Shown: in pieces, positions 3,982-49,047 of the stretch
How the letters are laid out: every line of letters begins with the position of its first letter
Position numbering within the stretch: position 1 is the first letter of the stretch
From: a virus
DNA: 64,000 nucleotides
Reading direction: 5' to 3' (one strand)
Virus record (IMG/VR): IMGVR_UViG_3300036770_002165
Span: 31,598-95,597 of that record
The notes under the pieces: model-generated
Seen by the model: the letters and a program-made list of their open reading frames with translations, nothing else
Databases searched by the model: none
Told to the model about the DNA's origin: nothing
Translations under genes and position numbers: made by a program

Positions 3982-4442
3982 TGTTCCGTAAGACCATTAT
4001 CGCCCTCTCTGTTGCTGGTGGGCTAATGGTTAGTGCGTGTGGGGGTGAGACTGTGTACGTCACGGTCTCACCCTCCACTACGGAGCCAGCCTCAACTACA
4101 ACGGTGCGTAAGACAACCACGACGTTGGCTACCACGCCACCGTTGGCCACCCGCCCACCATCAAACGTAAGCACGTATGACCCCGATGCTTACGACACTT
4201 TCCTTTGGTCAAGTGTTCGTGACTTCTGGTGGTTGTTCACTGAAGAACAGCTGCTCCAGATGGGCCTGCTTGTCTGCGAGGAGTTCGATCGTGGGTCAAC
4301 TCTCGACCAGGTCACCATGGCTTTGGTGGAGGTTCTTAACGACAGCAATACGGCGTACCTAGCCGAGGGTATGGCTGCGGTTACCGCTGGCGCTCTGACC
4401 TACTTGTGCCCCGAGCACAGTTGGTGGCTTAGCACCATCTAA
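3981..4442 (+). CDS. Putative lipoprotein with Thr-rich linker
   Basis: The first 20 residues form a lipoprotein signal: basic FRK, a hydrophobic core, then lipobox VSAC with the acceptor Cys at residue 20. Residues about 28-60 are a Thr/Pro-rich linker typical of exported actinobacterial proteins. The rest contains two further Cys and resembles small host-derived DUF732-like exported proteins only loosely. It should be anchored outside the host membrane, possibly for superinfection exclusion or envelope modification; this role is speculative. The start overlaps the upstream stop (TGATG). Confidence 0.65.
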   Translation: MFRKTIIALSVAGGLMVSACGGETVYVTVSPSTTEPASTTTVRKTTTTLATTPPLATRPPSNVSTYDPDAYDTFLWSSVRDFWWLFTEEQLLQMGLLVCEEFDRGSTLDQVTMALVEVLNDSNTAYLAEGMAAVTAGALTYLCPEHSWWLSTI

Positions 4443-4459
4443 TCACTAGGAAGGATCAC

Positions 4460-4696
4460 ATGATCATCCTGTACAACAAACACACTGGTGAGCACTTCAA
4501 CGCTGACGACGTGGTGCTTATCAACACCAGAGACATGGACAGCCACGTGCTGTCCGAGTTAGAGGACGGCAACCACGACGTGCTCGCAGACTTCGCTGAG
4601 ACTTCTGTGGCCACGCCGTTCTGGGAGGCGTTCGACCCTTTCGCTGAGCGTAAGGACAATCCCAACTATGGGTACGGCCCAACAATCCTGGTATAG
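4460..4696 (+). CDS. Hypothetical protein, 78 aa
   Basis: Small acidic unrecognised protein. An AGGAAGG Shine-Dalgarno precedes the ATG. A degenerate junction palindrome (CTAATCACTAG, 4439-4449) covers the upstream stop. Confidence 0.58.
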   Translation: MIILYNKHTGEHFNADDVVLINTRDMDSHVLSELEDGNHDVLADFAETSVATPFWEAFDPFAERKDNPNYGYGPTILV

Positions 4697-4708
4697 GAGG
4701 AGATAACC

Positions 4709-5233
4709 ATGGGTATGGATGTGTATGGCAAGAAGCCGCGCACTGAGCCCGGCGGATACTTCCGCAACAATGTCTGGTGGTGGCGTCCGCTGTGGCAGTA
4801 CTGCGTAGAGCAGCACCCCGACATCATTGACCCCAAGACTGCTGAGGCAGGCCACTTCAATAGCGGCGCTGGCCTCAACGCAGGTAAGTCCAGGGCCTTG
4901 GGTAAGGCGCTGTTGGAGGATATCTCCAATGGGGTCACCGACAAGTGGCGTGAGGAGTACTACGCAGCGATCGCCACGCTCCCGATGAGAGAGTGCACAC
5001 TCTGTGGTACAACGGGTATCCGCACCGACGACGTAGGTAAGGATCACGGCATGGACACACGAGAGCTAGACCCTGAGACAGCGACCCTCTTGGGCCGCAC
5101 ACATGGATGGTGTAATGGTTGCAATGGTGAAGGACACATGGAGCCATGGGAGGCCGGTTACCCATTCGAAGTAAGCAACGTCCGTGAGTTCGCAGAGTTC
5201 CTGTTGAACTGCGGAGGATTCGAGATTCACTGA
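4709..5233 (+). CDS. Conserved phage protein with zinc-binding cysteines, 174 aa
   Basis: It begins with MGMDVYGK, the hallmark of a widespread phage family of unknown function, followed by a Trp-rich patch (VWWWRPLW, residues 23-30). In the centre CTLC (near residues 97-100) and CNGC (near residues 136-139) make a four-Cys zinc site. A TAGGAGGAG Shine-Dalgarno fixes the start. The stop overlaps the next start (TGATG). Confidence 0.7.
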   Translation: MGMDVYGKKPRTEPGGYFRNNVWWWRPLWQYCVEQHPDIIDPKTAEAGHFNSGAGLNAGKSRALGKALLEDISNGVTDKWREEYYAAIATLPMRECTLCGTTGIRTDDVGKDHGMDTRELDPETATLLGRTHGWCNGCNGEGHMEPWEAGYPFEVSNVREFAEFLLNCGGFEIH

Positions 5234-35415: not shown

Positions 35416-36962
35416 TAGACCTGTGACTCCCTTAGAAATTTTGAAAGACTGCTTAACATAATGTCATACCCACCTTTTACGTCATGGTGTTTACCATCTA
35501 CAAAGGCTTCGTTGATCGATCGTTTTTCCTGGAGCATCTCGTACTGCCGTTCCTCGATCGACCCCTGCATGACGAACGTTGCAATAGTAACGTGCGAGAA
35601 CGTTGATGACAAGCGGATGATCCTGGCCTCACGCTGTTCAAGCTTACCACTGCTCCATGGCAGATCATACGAGATGAGGTAGTTGGCCATAGGCAAGTCG
35701 ACTCCGTAACCACCAGCATCTGATGACAAGAACAGCCTGGTGTTGGGGTCAGAGGAGAACTTCTGCTTTGCAACGTCTTTCTCCTCTGAGTTCATGTCCC
35801 CAGTAAACAACACGCTGTTAGTCAGCTTTGCTGTAGCGCGCTTGATAAGCCTGAGGTTGTCCTTGAAGAAAGAGAACAGCACAATCTTGTTGGCGGGGTC
35901 CTCATCAAGCACCTGCTCGATGTAGTCCATGACTGCATCTAGCTTCGGCGTGCCGATGCTGGCTGGCATAAAGCCGCGGCTGACGATCAGGTCAGCGTAG
36001 GCGCTGCCTTGCTTGGGTCGGTCTGGATCGGCAAATGCTTGGGCAGAGTTAACAATTAGCTGTGGGTTGTCACAGAGCATCCGTAGAACGAGCAGTCTAG
36101 ACATGATCTGGCCCTGGGCTTCGTTTGACTCCGGATCGTTGTAGTGTCGCCAGATGTTGAATGACCCGCCGTGCTTGCTGATTACCTGCTGTAACTGGTT
36201 AAGAAGATCAGATGAAATGGTCCGGTACAGCTGCGCACCAGCTGAGTCAAACGGGACCGGGATCGTCTGGTGGATGATCTGGGGCAGCTGGTCGGCAATG
36301 TCTTCGCGGGTCTTTCTTACCATGCATTCGGTCATGGACTCGTGTAGCGACTTTAAGTTTCTGTAGCGCGTTGGCTTGCCAAAATGGTCGCGGACAATAA
36401 AGGTGCGGTCAAAGGTGTCAAACCTACCGAGCACTTCTGGATCAACGAATTCCATAATTGAGAAGAGCTCTTCAGGGCGGTTCTCAATTGGCTGACCAGT
36501 TAGGGCGTAGCGGTAGTAGACCCGACGGCCAATCTTCTTGATGATCTTTGAACGTTTGCTGACCCGGGACTTGATGATGGTTGCCTCGTCAACAACTACC
36601 GCCTGGTAATCGACTTTGAGACAGTGAGACAGATCACGGATGAGTGTCTCAGGATTTACAATGATGTACTTAGCCGACAGCGTGGAGCGCCATGCCTTAA
36701 CGCGCTCTTTGGGGTTACCGTCGATAACGACTACTCTAGAATTTGTAAACCGCTCGATCTCTCGCATCCACTGGTACTTCAGGGAAGCCGGAACAACAAC
36801 TAGGCACTTGTCCACCTCGTTTGATTCCATGAGCTGCTCTATAGCCGCGATGGTGGTAACGGTCTTTCCCGCGCCCATTACAAGGCCGAGTAGCATCTGC
36901 CCTCGGTCAACCATACGGGCGACAGACTCTTCCTGGTATGGGTAAAGCTTTCCGTTAAACAT
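35415..36962 (-). CDS. SNF2-family helicase
   Basis: 515 residues. Walker A MGAGKT (29-34), DEAT in motif II, ALTGQPIENRPEELFS motif III and SGKLEQREARIIRLS motif VI, where the usual HR(I/L)GQ is altered. It is not closely similar to the other SNF2 protein of the window. ATG 36962 overlaps the primase stop (TGATG); an earlier in-frame ATG at 37070 would lie within the primase gene. Located in the replisome operon, it probably acts in fork restart or branch migration, like UvsW. Confidence 0.85.
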   Translation of the reverse strand: MFNGKLYPYQEESVARMVDRGQMLLGLVMGAGKTVTTIAAIEQLMESNEVDKCLVVVPASLKYQWMREIERFTNSRVVVIDGNPKERVKAWRSTLSAKYIIVNPETLIRDLSHCLKVDYQAVVVDEATIIKSRVSKRSKIIKKIGRRVYYRYALTGQPIENRPEELFSIMEFVDPEVLGRFDTFDRTFIVRDHFGKPTRYRNLKSLHESMTECMVRKTREDIADQLPQIIHQTIPVPFDSAGAQLYRTISSDLLNQLQQVISKHGGSFNIWRHYNDPESNEAQGQIMSRLLVLRMLCDNPQLIVNSAQAFADPDRPKQGSAYADLIVSRGFMPASIGTPKLDAVMDYIEQVLDEDPANKIVLFSFFKDNLRLIKRATAKLTNSVLFTGDMNSEEKDVAKQKFSSDPNTRLFLSSDAGGYGVDLPMANYLISYDLPWSSGKLEQREARIIRLSSTFSHVTIATFVMQGSIEERQYEMLQEKRSINEAFVDGKHHDVKGGYDIMLSSLSKFLRESQV

Positions 36963-37885
36963 CAGGCTACCCAGGGGGGGACAACGGTTGCTGTAGCAAG
37001 ACCGCGCTCGATTTCCTCGTCGGTCATATCCCCGATGTCTTTGGCATCCGTGCCACCGTAATTCCACCAACGAATGCCGCGGCGTGGGGTGTCCATAAAC
37101 TTGTACAAGTTCTTGCTCGACTTTAACCCTGCCTCGTCGTTGTCCATAGCGATGACAACTCGGCTAGCTATATGAGTCAGTAGGCGGCACTGTTCATACG
37201 AAACGGTAGCACCGAACGAAGCGACAGCATTTGGCTTGGTGAACACACCGGCAAACCTGACTACGTCAAGAGGCGATTCGACAAGAACAACTGTGGCACT
37301 GCGGACACGCTCAACGCCGAACAGCGTGTGGCTCTTCTTAACCCCAATCGGGTAGTTGCGCACCCAGTCTGGCTTCTTTTCCTGCCACCCCTGTAGTTGG
37401 CCTAGGGGTGAGATGATCGGCAGCGCCCAGCTTTTATTAGTGGGATTCCACCGTACTCCGTACCGGTACGCAACATCGGGATCAAGATTTCGCGACGCGC
37501 ATCTACGGTCTGACACACGTTCAAATGAGAAGAACGCATCGCGATCAACTACTACTGGAACGTCTGGGGTTGTGGAGTCCCCAGCAGCCAAGCGCTGCAT
37601 CCCAGCGTTTACTAGGAACTGCTGAGCGGAGATCGAGTCGTCCCCAGAAAGCTCACGCAATAGTGACGATAGAGAGCCGCGTGCACCGCATGAAAAGCAG
37701 ATCCACAGTCCGGTTGAGGAGTTGATACTCCACGATGGTGAGCGATCCTCGCGTCCTACTGTGCGCACATGGACTGGGCACCTGCCCATGATCTCACGAT
37801 CGCCAACCTTGGTGATCTCCACGCCCGCTGTTTGCAGAACGTAAGCAATGTCAGTCGAAAGATGGGTCGACGCTGACGCTGCCAT
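36962..37885 (-). CDS. dnaG: DnaG-type primase
   Basis: 307 residues. The N-terminal CHC2 zinc site is C36, H39, C63 and C66. The Toprim core has VVLVESPLDVVRFA (catalytic Glu) and VVIAMDNDEAG (DxD). GGAGGTGTTCG precedes ATG 37885, which lies within the end of the helicase gene (35-nt overlap). It makes RNA primers with the adjacent DnaB. Confidence 0.88.
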   Translation of the reverse strand: MAASASTHLSTDIAYVLQTAGVEITKVGDREIMGRCPVHVRTVGREDRSPSWSINSSTGLWICFSCGARGSLSSLLRELSGDDSISAQQFLVNAGMQRLAAGDSTTPDVPVVVDRDAFFSFERVSDRRCASRNLDPDVAYRYGVRWNPTNKSWALPIISPLGQLQGWQEKKPDWVRNYPIGVKKSHTLFGVERVRSATVVLVESPLDVVRFAGVFTKPNAVASFGATVSYEQCRLLTHIASRVVIAMDNDEAGLKSSKNLYKFMDTPRRGIRWWNYGGTDAKDIGDMTDEEIERGLATATVVPPWVA

Positions 37886-39104
37886 CGAACACCTCCTCAA
37901 ACTCCATAGTTGACCAGTCCCACTTGATATGGACCTCACCAGTGGGAGCGGAGCGCGCTGACACTACGCGGATGATTGCTTGATCATCGATGTCTGGGTT
38001 GCGCTCAACGCCAAGGATTAGGTCAGCGTCTTGAGCAAACGATGAGGTGTAACCAATCGCGTCTGCTGTGACTGCACGGGTCTTCTTGTTGTTTAGCTTC
38101 CAAGACAGCACCTGGGTAGTGGACACCACTGGAATATCGAAGCGCTGGGCTAGTCGCTTCAGAGATCGGGTGATGTTGGTGAGCGCCTGTGGTGAACCCT
38201 TTGGCTCTCCCTCTTCATCATCCATTAGGTACACGCCGTCAACGATGATCAGATCCGGTTGGTACTCCTGGATCTTTCCGGCTAGAGCAGTAACCGTGGT
38301 AAGCGACGAAGTGTCTTCGCTAAATACGAACGGCTGCATATGTTTGCGCCGTGACAATGCCGCCCGGATCTTCTTCATGTCTGCGTTGTTGAGATCACCT
38401 GAGAGGATGCGACCGTACGGCACTTTAGAAATGAGTGCGTCATAGCGGGCCTCCTGCTCTTCGATACTCATCTCAAAGGAGACGAATAGGGGGCGTTTAC
38501 CATGAACGTGAGCGGCGTTGGCGATGATGAGAGCGAAGAGAGACTTACCACGCTTAGGCTCTCCAGCGAAGACAATGAACTGCTGTGGGCGCAGCCCATT
38601 GGTGATTTTGTCGAGCCCGTGAAACCCGGTGGGTATGCCACGAAGAGCATTGGGTGACAAACGCATTTCTTCATATCGAGCAAGACGATCCTCCCAGTTT
38701 TGAATGATGTCAACATCGCGTAGGCGTGCTGCTTCTACCGACGCTTTTTGAAGACCGGATGACAGCAACTCCATTGCCTTGTTGACATCGTCGTCGTTTA
38801 GTGCGGCGATGCCGGGTGTCAAGGAATCAAATAGACACCGCTTCTTGTAGGCGTCGAAGATCTCTTCAAGAAGACGGGTGAATGGCTCATCCGTAGCATC
38901 GTGCAGAGTAATACCGCCGTGCTCTTGTACGAACACGCGCTCGCTAGGCACCGCTCCATGAGAGCGTTGGTACTCAAGAATCCAACGCCAAATGTCGGAC
39001 CACTCCCCAGTCAGGTGGTCTGGCTTTAGCCCTGACCGGACAGGAACAGTTGTGTCCTTTTCCTGAATGACTTTTGAAATTAGGTAGAGCTCGCTCGACG
39101 ACAT
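37851..39104 (-). CDS. dnaB: DnaB-type replicative helicase
   Basis: 417 residues. GEPKRGKS (Walker A, G181-S188), LIIVDGVYLM (Walker B, about 275), VVSTTQVLSWK (motif H3 Gln) and AQDADLILGVER. It has a reduced N-terminal domain. The start is ATG 39104 in TGATG; GTG 39107 is an alternative. It unwinds the fork and is loaded by the DnaC-like ATPase upstream. Confidence 0.88.
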   Translation of the reverse strand: MSSSELYLISKVIQEKDTTVPVRSGLKPDHLTGEWSDIWRWILEYQRSHGAVPSERVFVQEHGGITLHDATDEPFTRLLEEIFDAYKKRCLFDSLTPGIAALNDDDVNKAMELLSSGLQKASVEAARLRDVDIIQNWEDRLARYEEMRLSPNALRGIPTGFHGLDKITNGLRPQQFIVFAGEPKRGKSLFALIIANAAHVHGKRPLFVSFEMSIEEQEARYDALISKVPYGRILSGDLNNADMKKIRAALSRRKHMQPFVFSEDTSSLTTVTALAGKIQEYQPDLIIVDGVYLMDDEEGEPKGSPQALTNITRSLKRLAQRFDIPVVSTTQVLSWKLNNKKTRAVTADAIGYTSSFAQDADLILGVERNPDIDDQAIIRVVSARSAPTGEVHIKWDWSTMEFEEVFDGSVSVDPSFD

Positions 39105-39544
39105 CACATTCCCCAGGCCGTGTTGGAACTGACGACAGTAGCACGCATACCGAGCACGTAGGCGATCTCCTTGCTCGGCACGTAAACAACTTTGATGCTG
39201 CGGTCGTACCGTAGGTCAGCTTCGTAATCTTCAGGTGATGCGTAGTCGGTGACCGTGCATGAAACACCCTTGCGCAACAGCCAGCGATAAATTTCCTCTA
39301 CCGCTTCTCCGGGAAGGAAAGTGATGACTGCGGTGTTTATGCCGCGGCGCTCTACTGCGTCAATCAAGGACTTCAGCGGTAAATCGTTTGGCTTCCATAG
39401 CTTCAACGCTTTCTCCCAGTCCCCACGCCTGATGTAAAACTTCTCTTTGATAGCTGCTGCACCAGTTGGTCGCTCAGCCAACAGATCTTCGAAGACGCAG
39501 GCTTGACCGAAGACTGTGTACGAGTAGATGTCTCCCTTTTCCAT
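39104..39544 (-). CDS. Hypothetical protein between loader and helicase, 146 aa
   Basis: Unrecognised alpha/beta protein. It overlaps both its neighbours by one base (TAATG and TGATG), so it is made in step with the loader and helicase and may be a helicase partner. The sequence alone gives no more. Confidence 0.58.
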   Translation of the reverse strand: MEKGDIYSYTVFGQACVFEDLLAERPTGAAAIKEKFYIRRGDWEKALKLWKPNDLPLKSLIDAVERRGINTAVITFLPGEAVEEIYRWLLRKGVSCTVTDYASPEDYEADLRYDRSIKVVYVPSKEIAYVLGMRATVVSSNTAWGM

Positions 39545-40125
39545 TACGAAACACGCACCTCCCCCATCTCCAGAACGGCGCTCTTAACGCGGTCACCGTA
39601 GCGGCGGTTGAAGTCAGTAACGCCAAGTGTTGTGGTGATGATGACACTGCGGACGTTCTCGTAACGACGACGGATCAGGCTCCCGATTTCATGAACAGAA
39701 AATTCTGTCTCACGTTCCTGCCCAACACCATCAAGAAGCACAACATCGAACACGCCCTGGATGTACTTCACCAAGTACGGGCTTGAGTACATCTCGGGCA
39801 GCAAGTTGTCGCTGTCAAAAGTGTCCTTGAGCATCTCGATGTATTGCTCTGCGGAAACGAACCTGGCGGATAATCCCTTAGTGATCAAATGCCGCAGTAC
39901 TTCCTGTGCGAGCACTGTCTTACCTGTCCCTGGCTTGCCATGGATAAAGAGGCTGCTGCCTTCCTCGTAGTTGTTGACCCAGTGCGCGGCAACCGGGTGG
40001 ATGTCGACTTCAAGATTGCGAAACCGCGGTGGGATCTTGGCGTGGAACAAGCGCTCGTCGCTCGGGCGGTTGCGCCACCAGGCTGCGGATTTCCAGTCAG
40101 TCGGTGTCTGGTAGTTCTGGCTCAT
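39544..40125 (-). CDS. DnaC-like AAA+ helicase loader
   Basis: 193 residues. GKPGTGKT (63-70), DVVLLDGVGQE (Walker B, about 114-124) and SVIITTTLG (sensor 1). The size and layout fit DnaC/IstB-type loaders. GAGGACCACC precedes ATG 40125. It should load the neighbouring DnaB at the origin. Confidence 0.8.
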   Translation of the reverse strand: MSQNYQTPTDWKSAAWWRNRPSDERLFHAKIPPRFRNLEVDIHPVAAHWVNNYEEGSSLFIHGKPGTGKTVLAQEVLRHLITKGLSARFVSAEQYIEMLKDTFDSDNLLPEMYSSPYLVKYIQGVFDVVLLDGVGQERETEFSVHEIGSLIRRRYENVRSVIITTTLGVTDFNRRYGDRVKSAVLEMGEVRVS

Positions 40126-40453
40126 GGTGGTCCTCTTGTGTGTCGTTGTAGGAGTTCTCAATTATGTCCCAAAATTTTGAGTTGTCAATCTTCCGCTTGT
40201 GTACAACAGTGGTGTGTACATCAAGACCAGCTTTAGTACTAAATTGCGCTGAGCATTCAGGGCACTTCTCCATGTCCTTTTTGGGAACTTGTTGACGGGT
40301 GCAGAAAATGTCAGTGGGAATCAGTTGGTCCATAGAGTGGTCGAACCAAAGCTCGTACTCCTGCGGTGAGGAGAAGTTCTCATTAACCCAGGCAGCAAAG
40401 AACAGGATGTCATCAAGGCTTGAAAATACGTAACGCTTATCATTTTCTTCCAT
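40097..40453 (-). CDS. C2H2 zinc-finger protein, 118 aa
   Basis: CPECSAQFSTKAGLDVHTTVVH (about residues 64-85) is a clear C2H2 finger with the ordinary Phe and Leu core. The N-terminal half is acidic and aromatic. It lies between initiator and loader, so a role in origin recognition is possible. Confidence 0.62.
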   Translation of the reverse strand: MEENDKRYVFSSLDDILFFAAWVNENFSSPQEYELWFDHSMDQLIPTDIFCTRQQVPKKDMEKCPECSAQFSTKAGLDVHTTVVHKRKIDNSKFWDIIENSYNDTQEDHHEPELPDTD

Positions 40454-41678
40454 GATTGATTCTTCTGTAGTTGTACACAGCCTCCGTAATTGAAGCGGCC
40501 TGGGGTCTTAAATTTTCTTTTGACAACTTGATCAGCTCGTCAGGCAGTGGAACCCCAGTTAGGGACTCCCGTAGCTCAACCGGGTCACCGTCTTCTTCAC
40601 CAGCTATAACTCTTACTAACGAGTTTAGCGTAGATAGGGTAGGTTTAAATTCTTCAGATGTACCACCTGAACTATTCTCGATGAGGTAAACTACTAGTTC
40701 GGGGTATCGATAACAGATATCCATTCCGTACATGATCACGGTGTTCCTTATGACCTGATCACTCGCCCGGTCATCCCACGGTAGGTCTAGATCACCGCGC
40801 TGAAAGTCGTTTACGACGAAGGAGAGAACGGGGTTGTCTACGGCAACCGTAGCGTCGGTCTGCTCCATTAGTTTTTTCTGCACGGCCTTGCTGGAGAATG
40901 TCAGCACTGGGTTGTCTGAGTTGCGCCAGTGCTCTACGTCGAGGAAGCGTTTGATCATCTGTGAGATGGTGAACTCTGTTAGGCCGGAGTCGGCCAGCGT
41001 GTTGAGGGTCCTTTTCAGTATCACGACTTCTTGCGTGGAGTACGTGCGGCTCATGATAACCCGGGGGTCACCAATGAACTGGGTGACGAGTCGCCCTAGC
41101 TTCCGGTTGGGTTTCTTCTTCGGTGCCGGATCGAACGGAACGTCCTCTCGGTCTGGGTCTGCCCCAAAGATCATGTCCTCACCTCCGCCGCTTGCGGCCC
41201 TCTTTAGTACTTCTATGTCACTAATATCTAGTATCTCTATTGCAATTTCGCGAATCCCCTGGTCGGGCCAGGAAAATGGCCCATTTGAATAGGTCACCGG
41301 TGACCTATTGGGAGCACCATCATGGGTACTTGAATAGGTCACGGCTGACCTATTGAATAGGTCACCGGTGACTCTATTGGTTGGCTTTTGATAGATGATC
41401 TTGTACACATTTACGGCTGGCTTACCACGCCTGGTGGTGAGTACCACTCGATGTTCTTCGAGCCACTTTAATGAACGCTGTACCGTTTTTGGGCTAACCA
41501 TTACGTACTCTGCGATCTGGTTGATAGACGCCCTAACCTCTTGCGTACGGCGTTCCATGAGGGCTACTAGTCCTACTAAAACCTGTAGGTCACGCGCCTG
41601 ACCGTGGTCGCGGATCTCCTCCGCAGCCCACACGGGAACCGCCAAGAAAGGTCCCTGAAAAAGCGAGTTGGTGGTCAT
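40440..41678 (-). CDS. Replication initiator-like winged-helix protein
   Basis: 412 residues. A winged HTH spans about residues 20-95 (DLQVLVGLVALMERRT...ASINQIAEYVMVSPKTVQRSLKWLEEHRVV), as in RepA/lambda-O-type initiators. The C-terminal 200 residues are helical. Its gene contains three palindromic iterons (41288-41378) that also produce a near-repeat in the protein (NRxxVTYS twice). Helicase loader, helicase and primase follow. ATG 41678 is preferred to GTG 41699; it lacks a Shine-Dalgarno but lies where a leaderless transcript would begin. Confidence 0.7.
   Translation of the reverse strand: MTTNSLFQGPFLAVPVWAAEEIRDHGQARDLQVLVGLVALMERRTQEVRASINQIAEYVMVSPKTVQRSLKWLEEHRVVLTTRRGKPAVNVYKIIYQKPTNRVTGDLFNRSAVTYSSTHDGAPNRSPVTYSNGPFSWPDQGIREIAIEILDISDIEVLKRAASGGGEDMIFGADPDREDVPFDPAPKKKPNRKLGRLVTQFIGDPRVIMSRTYSTQEVVILKRTLNTLADSGLTEFTISQMIKRFLDVEHWRNSDNPVLTFSSKAVQKKLMEQTDATVAVDNPVLSFVVNDFQRGDLDLPWDDRASDQVIRNTVIMYGMDICYRYPELVVYLIENSSGGTSEEFKPTLSTLNSLVRVIAGEEDGDPVELRESLTGVPLPDELIKLSKENLRPQAASITEAVYNYRRINHGRK
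41288..41378. repeat. Three palindromic iterons, candidate replication origin
   Basis: Copy 1 (41288-41309) is a perfect 22-bp palindrome with half-site AATAGGTCACC. Copy 2 (41333-41354) keeps both 9-bp arms AATAGGTCA/TGACCTATT around CGGC. Copy 3 (41356-41378) has the same left half and a right half with one extra T. Copies 2 and 3 are separated by 1 bp. They lie inside the initiator gene, as the iterons of lambda O do. Alternative: autoregulatory or partition sites. Confidence 0.65.
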
Positions 41679-41701
41679 GGGTGGGGCAGAATACACCACC
41701 C
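41679..41701. promoter_or_regulatory. Operator-like inverted repeat around the initiator -10
   Basis: GGGTGG (41679-41684) and CCACCC (41696-41701) are perfect 6-bp arms separated by 11 bp that contain the -10 box. Protein binding here would block the initiator promoter. It is the best autoregulation candidate in the window. Confidence 0.5.
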
Positions 41702-41863: not shown

Positions 41864-42298
41864 ATGGACGAGCTAATTAAGGCACTCAAAGTAGCTATGG
41901 CTGATGTGGTTACCATGTACTTCATGGCCCACGGGTACCACTGGAATGTAGAAGGTCAGGACTTCAGCCAGTACCACGACCTGTTTGGGGATATCTACGA
42001 GGATGTCTATGGCTCAGTCGATCCTTTGGCTGAGAACGTACGGAAGCTTGATGACTATGCGCCGTTCAGCCTCCAGAAGTTCATCGACCTTCGTAACGTC
42101 GAGTTCAAGGATGTTGACCCCACGCCAAAGGCAATGGCCAAGTCACTCATGAAGGCCAACGAAACCGTGATCGGGACACTGAACGATGCCTTCAAGAAGG
42201 CTGAAAAAGCTGACCAGCAGGGGATAATGGACTTCCTTGCTAGTCGAATTGATATGCATATGAAATGGGCGTGGCAACTCCGCGCCTCAACTAAGTGA
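41864..42298 (+). CDS. dps: Dps/ferritin-like DNA-protection protein
   Basis: The 144-residue protein has the Dps signature: HGYHWNVEGQDFSQYHDLFGDIYEDVYGSVDPLAE (given here only for residues about 23-57 as the motif HWNVEG, then D/E ligands in YEDVYGSVD). His, Asp and Glu of the intersubunit ferroxidase site are kept, and the C-terminal helix follows. Dps forms 12-mers that oxidise Fe(II) and shield DNA. In a phage it could protect DNA or manage oxidative stress. AGGAG lies 5 nt upstream. The operon continues with four small basic proteins. Confidence 0.8.
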   Translation: MDELIKALKVAMADVVTMYFMAHGYHWNVEGQDFSQYHDLFGDIYEDVYGSVDPLAENVRKLDDYAPFSLQKFIDLRNVEFKDVDPTPKAMAKSLMKANETVIGTLNDAFKKAEKADQQGIMDFLASRIDMHMKWAWQLRASTK

Positions 42299-47668: not shown

Positions 47669-48079
47669 CTAAATCAAGCTGTCTTCGGTTAGCTCCGATG
47701 GCACGGCAACGCTAAATCTTACCACCTGCGGAGAACCTAGTGGTAATCTATAAATTACTGTTATTCCAAGTGTTGTTTCTGGATTGCCGTATGAAGCAAT
47801 TGTGTTTGTTGGAGATACCCTTATGTCAAGTATACTAACTCTACTGATTGCGTCGGCAGCATCTTGCCGAGCGTCAATTATAAAGTCAGCTAACGACAAA
47901 CTGTCTAGCTGATCGAACAGTAGTCTCCGGATATCCGATCCATAACGATGCCGCATTACGCGCTCAAATTTACCGGTAGTAAGAACGTCAACAATCTTTT
48001 GCTCAGCAATAGTTGTAACTGATGATGTTGTTTGAGTTTTACCACCAACAAAATTAAATGGAATTTTTAAAGACTTCAT
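47669..48079 (-). CDS. Baseplate wedge protein, gp25/GPW family
   Basis: 136 residues. ADFIIDARQDAADAISRVSILDIRV and TTLGITVIYRLPLGSPQVV are the signature of the gp25/GPW lysozyme-like wedge protein, here without obvious catalytic residues. Its place directly before baseplate J is canonical. Confidence 0.82.
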   Translation of the reverse strand: MKSLKIPFNFVGGKTQTTSSVTTIAEQKIVDVLTTGKFERVMRHRYGSDIRRLLFDQLDSLSLADFIIDARQDAADAISRVSILDIRVSPTNTIASYGNPETTLGITVIYRLPLGSPQVVRFSVAVPSELTEDSLI

Positions 48080-48081
48080 AG

Positions 48082-49047
48082 TTACACCTTAATTATGTAA
48101 TTTAAAACAATATATGGCTGAAGTATATTAAAGGCAGTTGGACTTGCGCTTCCGGCATTGCCGGTGTCACCAGATGCCTGTCCTGTTGTAACGCTTGTGG
48201 TTGGAATAGAAACAGTGTGATCGTGCGAATCGTTTGAAATAGAATGTGTATGACTACCACCACTTATACTCACTGACGACCAGTTACCAACGTTGCCTGA
48301 TACTGTTCCTCCACCGGTAAGGTTATCCCCCCAAAAGTTTCTTGAGACAGTGTGACCATGCGAACCACTGCTGCTGATATCACCATGGTCGTGTGTGTAT
48401 GAGGTAGTGCTACCGCTGTGTCCGTGGTTAGCTGAGTGTGTGTGACTGTTTAATGAATGACTGTGTTGCGGGAGGTTTGTTAAAGCAAGTGCTATTGACT
48501 TACCCCCATCTGTAAAGCCAATGGCGTTGAATTCGGTTTGTGTAACATCAAGCCCAACCGGTACTTTGCCCTTTAAATTTGGAAGGCGAAATTGTCCGAC
48601 AGGCTCACCGCCAATAGCGTACACGTCTCCAATGGCTGTGTACAAAGCAGAATATAAAGTTTTAGAAACAGTCCCCCCCTGACATAGCAGCCACCCGGTT
48701 GGTGCCGCACTTCCTCCAAACTGCATTATTGCGCCGGATGGGACGGACTGTTCCTCTTCGGGAGGTGGCTCCTCTCCACCACCCCCGCCACCTTCAGCAG
48801 CTTGGATAACCGCCAGATTAGGGTAGACCATATACACATTAGAGAAACGGTCGTCTTCAATGGCCACTACTACTTGGCTACCAAGTAGGGGCACTTCCCA
48901 AGTACCATTTACAGCAGCTCGACCAATCTTTGAAATGGGCAATACCTCTGTTGGGCCAAGAATCGCCGGTATGCGCACTCGGATATCTCCGGTTGTTGCG
49001 GAGGCATACGAAACCACGGCTCGATATAAGTTCATTCCATCATACAT
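48082..49047 (-). CDS. Spike-like OB domain fused to tail-collar fibre
   Basis: The first 75 residues (GDIRVRIPAILG, WEVPLLGSQVVVAIEDDRFSNVYMV) look like the OB fold of gpV/gp5 spikes. A Glu/Pro/Gly linker follows, then PSGAIMQFGGSAAPTGWLLCQG, the phage tail-collar domain, and a His/Ser-rich region with many HSH and HDH motifs that may bind metal. ATG 49047 is chosen over 49119, which lies inside the hub gene. Confidence 0.7.
   Translation of the reverse strand: MYDGMNLYRAVVSYASATTGDIRVRIPAILGPTEVLPISKIGRAAVNGTWEVPLLGSQVVVAIEDDRFSNVYMVYPNLAVIQAAEGGGGGGEEPPPEEEQSVPSGAIMQFGGSAAPTGWLLCQGGTVSKTLYSALYTAIGDVYAIGGEPVGQFRLPNLKGKVPVGLDVTQTEFNAIGFTDGGKSIALALTNLPQHSHSLNSHTHSANHGHSGSTTSYTHDHGDISSSGSHGHTVSRNFWGDNLTGGGTVSGNVGNWSSVSISGGSHTHSISNDSHDHTVSIPTTSVTTGQASGDTGNAGSASPTAFNILQPYIVLNYIIKV

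Follow-up and report, generated by a model that had tools for sequence, protein, structure and literature searches.

A candidate lambda-type replication origin within the initiator gene of an environmental bacteriophage of about 95 kb

Three related palindromes lie inside the gene for a putative replication initiator in the virus record IMGVR_UViG_3300036770_002165, and this raises the question of whether the gene carries the iterons of its own replication origin. We analysed a stretch of 64,000 nucleotides of this record (the window) together with related loci. Hereafter, positions are those of the window unless the record is named, the sequences of the palindromes are given for the plus strand, and distances with a plus sign are counted from the last iteron in the direction of the gene.

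The palindromes and the gene that carries them

Each of the three palindromes is 22 bp long (Table 1). The sequence-only reading had described three related palindromes, one of them perfect, within the initiator gene, with a single base pair between the second and third copies, and both points were borne out, the first by the coordinates and a search with the core pattern and the second by the coordinates. When the 18-bp core was searched in the 64 kb with up to three mismatches, matches were found at the three palindromes only, giving 6 strand-hits against 0.12 expected, a number that was reached in 0 of 100 shuffles. The half-site AATAGGTCAC occurs four times in the whole 95,597-bp record, each time at the array, which is located at about 72.9 kb of the record and about 300-415 bp into the gene. 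The region upstream of the gene contains no site at 0-1 mismatches. The degenerate arm of the third copy reads ATAGAGTCA on the gene strand and keeps the 9-bp register of the family half-site ATAGGGTCA, which suggests that the shorter half-site of this phage is derived from the family form.

Table 1. Positions in the window of the candidate origin elements, the initiator and its domains, and the neighbouring replication genes
Feature	Position	Strand	Evidence or remark
Iteron, perfect palindrome AATAGGTCACCGGTGACCTATT	41288-41309		two 11-bp arms without spacer
Iteron, palindrome broken solely at the centre AATAGGTCACGGCTGACCTATT	41333-41354
Iteron with one degenerate arm AATAGGTCACCGGTGACTCTAT	41356-41377
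AT-rich element, candidate DNA unwinding element	41201-41240		72% AT in a gene of 49% AT
Short inverted repeat GCCGC-AA-GCGGC (GCCGCAAGCGGC), directly past the AT-rich element	41187-41198		compensatory variants in relatives
Replication initiator gene, 419 aa as listed	40440-41699	-	phrog_678 'replication initiation O-like' E=4.5e-6; AlphaFold2 model
Winged-helix DNA-binding domain, aa ~19-103	41391-41645	-	AlphaFold2; CAP/CRP profile match; half-site covariation
Recognition helix, aa 70-82	41454-41492	-
Variable specificity residue Q74	41478-41480	-	covariation with half-site
C-terminal helical domain, aa ~198-418	40446-41108	-	pLDDT 88 modelled alone
Small zinc-finger-like ORF, 118 aa, between initiator and loader	40097-40453	-	zf-C2H2_4 E=0.0015, under Pfam cut-off
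DnaC-like helicase loader	39544-40161	-	phrog_50 E=7.9e-26
146-aa ORF, loader-helicase interval	39104-39544	-	no significant family in Pfam or PHROG
DnaB-like replicative helicase	37851-39107	-	PF03796 E=2e-37; phrog_19 E=7.9e-65
DNA primase, zinc ribbon and Toprim	36962-37939	-	phrog_47 E=1.1e-34; Toprim_2, Zn_ribbon_DnaG

The initiator probably starts at the ATG at 41678 and not at the GTG at 41699, because the sequence ...PM-TTN is conserved. In its AlphaFold2 model, for which 35 sequences were aligned, a confidently predicted winged helix reaches to about residue 107; it is followed by disorder at about 108-197 (pLDDT below 50 at nearly all residues) and by a helical C-domain from about 198. 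The iterons encode residues ~108-139, the AT-rich element ~154-167 and the short inverted repeat ~168-171, and thus all the proposed origin elements fall within the DNA that codes for the predicted disordered linker. The predicted winged helix is CRP/FNR-like: comparison with PDB profiles gave a CAP match at residues 49-91 (E=9e-4), and the Pfam Crp-like HTH score was sub-threshold, at 19.1 against a cut-off of 27 bits. Its weak fold matches include the Rep initiators 4pql, 4pt7 and 5kbj and also the partition proteins TubR and AspA. The C-domain, which presumably contacts the loader or the helicase, matched no Pfam family and no PDB fold, and has one close homologue, from an uncultured phage. 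Initiators of related loci match the PHROG profiles phrog_1032 (9.5e-21), phrog_391 (5.4e-19) and phrog_270 (1.2e-17).

The initiator gene had been placed directly upstream of loader, helicase and primase genes. The order is correct and the directness is not, as the 118-aa ORF precedes the loader and the 146-aa ORF precedes DnaB. ORFs at both places, zinc-finger-like at the first and homologous-looking at the second, occur in many relatives. Past the primase, a SNF2-type helicase is encoded in the same direction, followed farther on by an SSB-like protein and a DNA polymerase. On the other side, a divergent Dps/ferritin-like gene (41864-42298, plus strand; PF00210 E=8.9e-17; phrog_3636 'DNA binding protein') adjoins the initiator gene. 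An Rfam scan of 40-43 kb detected no known RNA element.

Conservation of the array and of the elements beyond it

With the initiator as sole query, one locus was found, and it is identical. Using DnaB and the loader as queries, we collected about 80 loci from IMG/VR; they contain 45 distinct initiator genes, whose products are, apart from the identical copy, about 27-57% identical to that of the window. In nearly all of the 45 genes, 3-4 palindromes are located at the same linker, the exceptions being lineages with variant repeats and one truncated contig. The consensus iteron of the family is ATRGGGTCA-N4-TGACCCYAT. Start-to-start spacings of 22/23, 33/34, 45 and 57 bp were the only ones observed; they are near multiples of 11.3 bp, the pattern that dimers lined up along a single face of the helix would produce. 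Of 57 exact GGTCAN4TGACC sites counted over 20 phage records (1.50 Mb), 54 fall in the initiator gene, which makes up about 1.7% of that sequence, and the reversed control pattern gave 3 matches. A binomial figure for this restriction counts related genomes as independent and is not a real probability.

Outside this group, the initiator had no relative in 84,980 bacterial and archaeal genomes, and the 50,697 phage records searched yielded none beyond a partial winged-helix match. The sole tblastn match among cultured phages was a partial winged helix in a Parageobacillus phage. Streptomyces phage LuckySocke, which is among the closest cultured DnaB matches, has no iteron-like repeats near its DnaC-like loader.

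The repeats had been thought to force near-repeats on the protein, so that selection on DNA would outweigh constraint on protein. The first part applies to two window copies, which share a frame (NRSAVTYS and NRSPVTYS), and not to the third, which is read in another (NRVTGDLF). The second part gained stronger support than the original argument offered, since copies in different frames favour selection at the DNA level. Across the family, copies occur in either of two frames, and the resulting peptides bear no relation to each other (G-S-x-x-T-x-S and R-V-T-x-D-P-I); over 21 representative genes, 41 copies use one frame and 29 the other. The third frame would place a TGA in frame, and the sole copy found there (L070) has AGA instead. 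Shuffling of synonymous codons seldom regenerates the arrays; for the window gene, in which 4 sites are observed, shuffles gave a mean of 0.52 and a maximum of 3. Among these 4 observed sites, the one at gene position 617 is a stray and matches only in part. The array is held by selection at the DNA level.

New in this analysis is the conserved order past the iterons, an AT-rich element and then usually a hairpin. The AT-rich element of the window begins 47 bp beyond the last iteron and ranks in the top 0.4% of the 40-bp windows of the gene. All 41 genes tested have a 40-bp stretch within the top 1.3% of AT content of the gene, starting at +33 to +53. Over the whole genome, the AT content of 100-bp stretches peaks (77%) in the structural-gene region, at 48032-48131. 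Between the last iteron and the AT-rich element, another hairpin, GGGCCATTTTCCTGGCCC at 41265-41282 (6-bp arms, 6-nt loop), was noticed in the copy of the window only.

Most genes then have a short inverted repeat at +85 to +94, which takes the forms GACCGCGAGCGGTC, GTCGCAAGCGAC and GGCCGATGGCC in relatives. Among nine distinct sequences of the 5-bp hairpin type, 2 of the 5 pairs have changed on both sides, and 100% of the cells pair as against 22-58% when the alignment is slid. The window hairpin by itself is unexceptional, as 27% of the other windows of its gene score as high; the hairpin appears persuasive through the relatives and weak when this genome is considered by itself. The most distant initiator clade has, within the coding region at +55, a perfect inverted repeat with arms of 15-16 bp (ACAAAGGGAAATGTCT..AGACATTTCCCTTTGT; L054:4158-4191, with equivalents in L055, L057 and L060-L068). 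Compensatory changes occur between its subclades, amounting to two doubly changed pairs in four distinct sequences only.

Covariation of the sites with the DNA-binding domain

Exchanges and losses of the winged helix were compared with the repeats at the same genes. In L049 and L050, a different winged helix is joined to a homologous C-domain, and the linker repeat differs as well (GGGCGGACAT, 22/23 or 46 bp apart). In L071 and L072, the gene is cut to a 171-aa C-domain without winged helix (4436-4951 in both); no site was found in the record of L072, and none of the repeats at the gene in L071. In L074 (185-1158) and L076 (3794-4725), the winged-helix part and the C-terminal part are separate adjacent ORFs, and iteron-like repeats (GTGTCA..TGACAC) remain with the winged-helix ORF.

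At a finer level, one residue of the recognition helix varies with the half-site. Lysine is found with GGGTCA, the glutamine of the window with AGGTCA, isoleucine in L053 with GTGTCA, and isoleucine in L076 and methionine in L074 also with GTGTCA. In the tree, L053 groups with the K-type L070 (support 97/92), away from L074 and L076, indicating at least two separate origins for the pairing of I/M with T. Both arms of the palindrome change in step among GGGTCA, GTGTCA and AGGTCA, and the symmetry is kept. The pattern ETVxR in the recognition helix of the initiator resembles E209-T-I-S212-R213 of FNR, and in an alignment by eye the variable residue appears to correspond to FNR Ser-212. The FNR box TTGATN4ATCAA is contacted mainly by E209, S212 and R213 (PMC4505428).

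Such covariation would equally be predicted if the palindromes were operators or roadblocks through which the winged-helix protein represses its own operon, replication starting elsewhere. The sites do belong to the operon's first gene, and the protein resembles CRP/FNR transcription factors in its DNA-binding domain, with a similar recognition-helix pattern, an N4-spaced box and the CAP profile match. Unlike these regulators, however, the modelled initiator has no effector-binding domain, with about 20-45 residues before the winged-helix core, and its gene context is one of replication, the neighbours being loader, helicase and primase. Repression also leaves the constant AT-rich element and the hairpin unexplained, and the sites are deep inside the gene and not at the promoter, and upstream of the gene none was found at 0-1 mismatches. 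We therefore consider it improbable that repression is their main function, although the same sites may be autoregulatory as an additional role.

The origin reading and comparison with known initiators

The locus is very probably a lambda-type intragenic replication origin of a bacteriophage of about 95 kb, within its own initiator gene. This assignment is made because initiators with as little as about 27% identity keep the array at its place and it is almost absent elsewhere in those genomes, because the AT-rich element and usually the hairpin come next in conserved order, because the sites alter or vanish with the DNA-binding domain, and because the replisome genes for loader, DnaB and primase adjoin. 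The sites, their near-restriction to the gene, the element order, the DNA-level selection, the covariation and the neighbourhood were computed. The proposal of the sequence-only reading, that the palindromes are iterons of a candidate origin in the initiator gene, is thus supported by conservation, element order and covariation with the DNA-binding domain.

A different function, in which the protein binds the palindromes as a centromere-like partition site of a plasmid-like prophage, would fit the weak structural matches to TubR and AspA, and palindrome arrays are known at centromeres too. Nevertheless, neither a tyrosine integrase nor a ParA-type ATPase above the cut-off is present in eight related records, G003 having a single sub-threshold ParA-type fragment, the lack of a relative in the 84,980 bacterial and archaeal genomes gives no sign of a prophage, and the neighbours are replication genes. 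We rejected this very unlikely reading, as no ParA above cut-off and no integrase was found in those records. It is hardly conceivable that the repeats serve neither regulation nor an origin and represent a palindromic mobile element or a repeat at the level of the protein. Palindromic elements capable of inserting into genes do exist, and the peptides of two window copies are alike. Yet the genomes have practically no sites outside the initiator gene, copies are read in both of the permitted frames with unrelated peptides as the result, and the symmetry is preserved as both arms change together.

For an origin at this locus, we infer the binding, melting, helicase recruitment and replication start by analogy, with steps modelled on the lambda, SPP1 and pSK41 literature (PMC7466680, PMC6022878, PMC6316719, PMC5703833). 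Winged-helix dimers would bind the 22-bp palindromes with one recognition helix per GGTCA half-site, and at least three bound dimers, on sites in steps of about 11.3 bp, would build an O-some-like complex. This complex would strain and melt the AT-rich element 47 bp downstream in the gene direction. The C-terminal helical domain would then bring in the phage DnaB, which the DnaC-like loader would place on the melted strand next to the hairpin, and priming by the primase of the phage would come last.

The layout had been likened to that of lambda O, and in architecture the likeness holds; no direct homology was found at the sequence level, hhalign of the initiator against lambda O alone giving a probability of 0.1%. 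PHROG profiles labelled O-like do match the initiator family, 'O-like' being the name of the profile. In the lambda origin (PMC7466680, PMC6022878), palindromic iterons likewise lie in the middle of the initiator gene and encode the linker between an N-terminal DNA-binding and a C-terminal domain, an AT-rich tract comes next, and the loader gene is downstream, as the DnaC-like loader is here two genes on. By the measure used here, the lambda tract starts about 3 bp past the iterons, whereas in the present family the AT-rich element starts at 33-53 bp. In addition, the present phage differs in its iteron sequence, in encoding DnaB and primase, and in the CRP/FNR-type winged helix.

Two other systems share the plan. 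In SPP1, gp38 binds direct repeats in its own gene 38 at oriL, which has an AT-rich unwinding element, and the phage provides the loader gp39 and the DnaB-type gp40 (PMC6316719); the likeness is one of description, and SPP1 has a second origin, oriR, whereas the genome of the window has one site array. In Rep of the staphylococcal plasmid pSK41, a RepA_N protein, a winged-helix N-domain binds four boxes inside rep, and the origin encodes the central linker to a separate C-domain (PMC5703833). Unlike the present case, pSK41 is a plasmid and the Rep C-domain binds the host DnaG, whereas this phage encodes a primase. PF06970 (RepA_N) was not among the Pfam matches of the initiator at E up to 1, and the fold resemblance to RepA_N initiators is weak and concerns the winged helix alone. 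In sequence, the family is apparently close neither to lambda O nor to RepA_N. Judged by homology, it seems to be a separate family, because no direct match to lambda O was found and the C-domain matches neither a Pfam family nor a solved fold. A bolder reading, possible though doubtful, is a separate superfamily combining a swappable winged helix with a novel C-domain fold, in which one residue would largely set the iterons (K for GGGTCA, Q for AGGTCA, I/M for GTGTCA) and the hairpin would be a signal for helicase loading or priming. If this were true, origin specificity could be read from sequence.

The intragenic plan has already been reported for lambda O, SPP1 gp38 and pSK41 Rep, and the present family would be another case. 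For these environmental phages, it provides a candidate origin that is well supported and complete in its parts. The swaps of winged helix and iteron, their joint loss, and the covariation of a single residue with a single base are natural experiments that make the co-evolution of initiator specificity and an intragenic origin directly testable.

GC skew had been proposed as a check, a minimum elsewhere being counted against an origin here. The cumulative minimum is at record position 87,768, about 15 kb from the iterons, and formally speaks against the locus, but the skew is weak and is inconsistent in five related genomes, and we set it aside as uninformative for or against an origin here. 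In the window, the cumulative skew turns near 56.2 kb, inside a run of genes that share one direction. The ends of the 95,597-bp record carry a 67-bp direct terminal repeat, which suggests that the record, though listed without end repeats, is a complete genome with a circular map.
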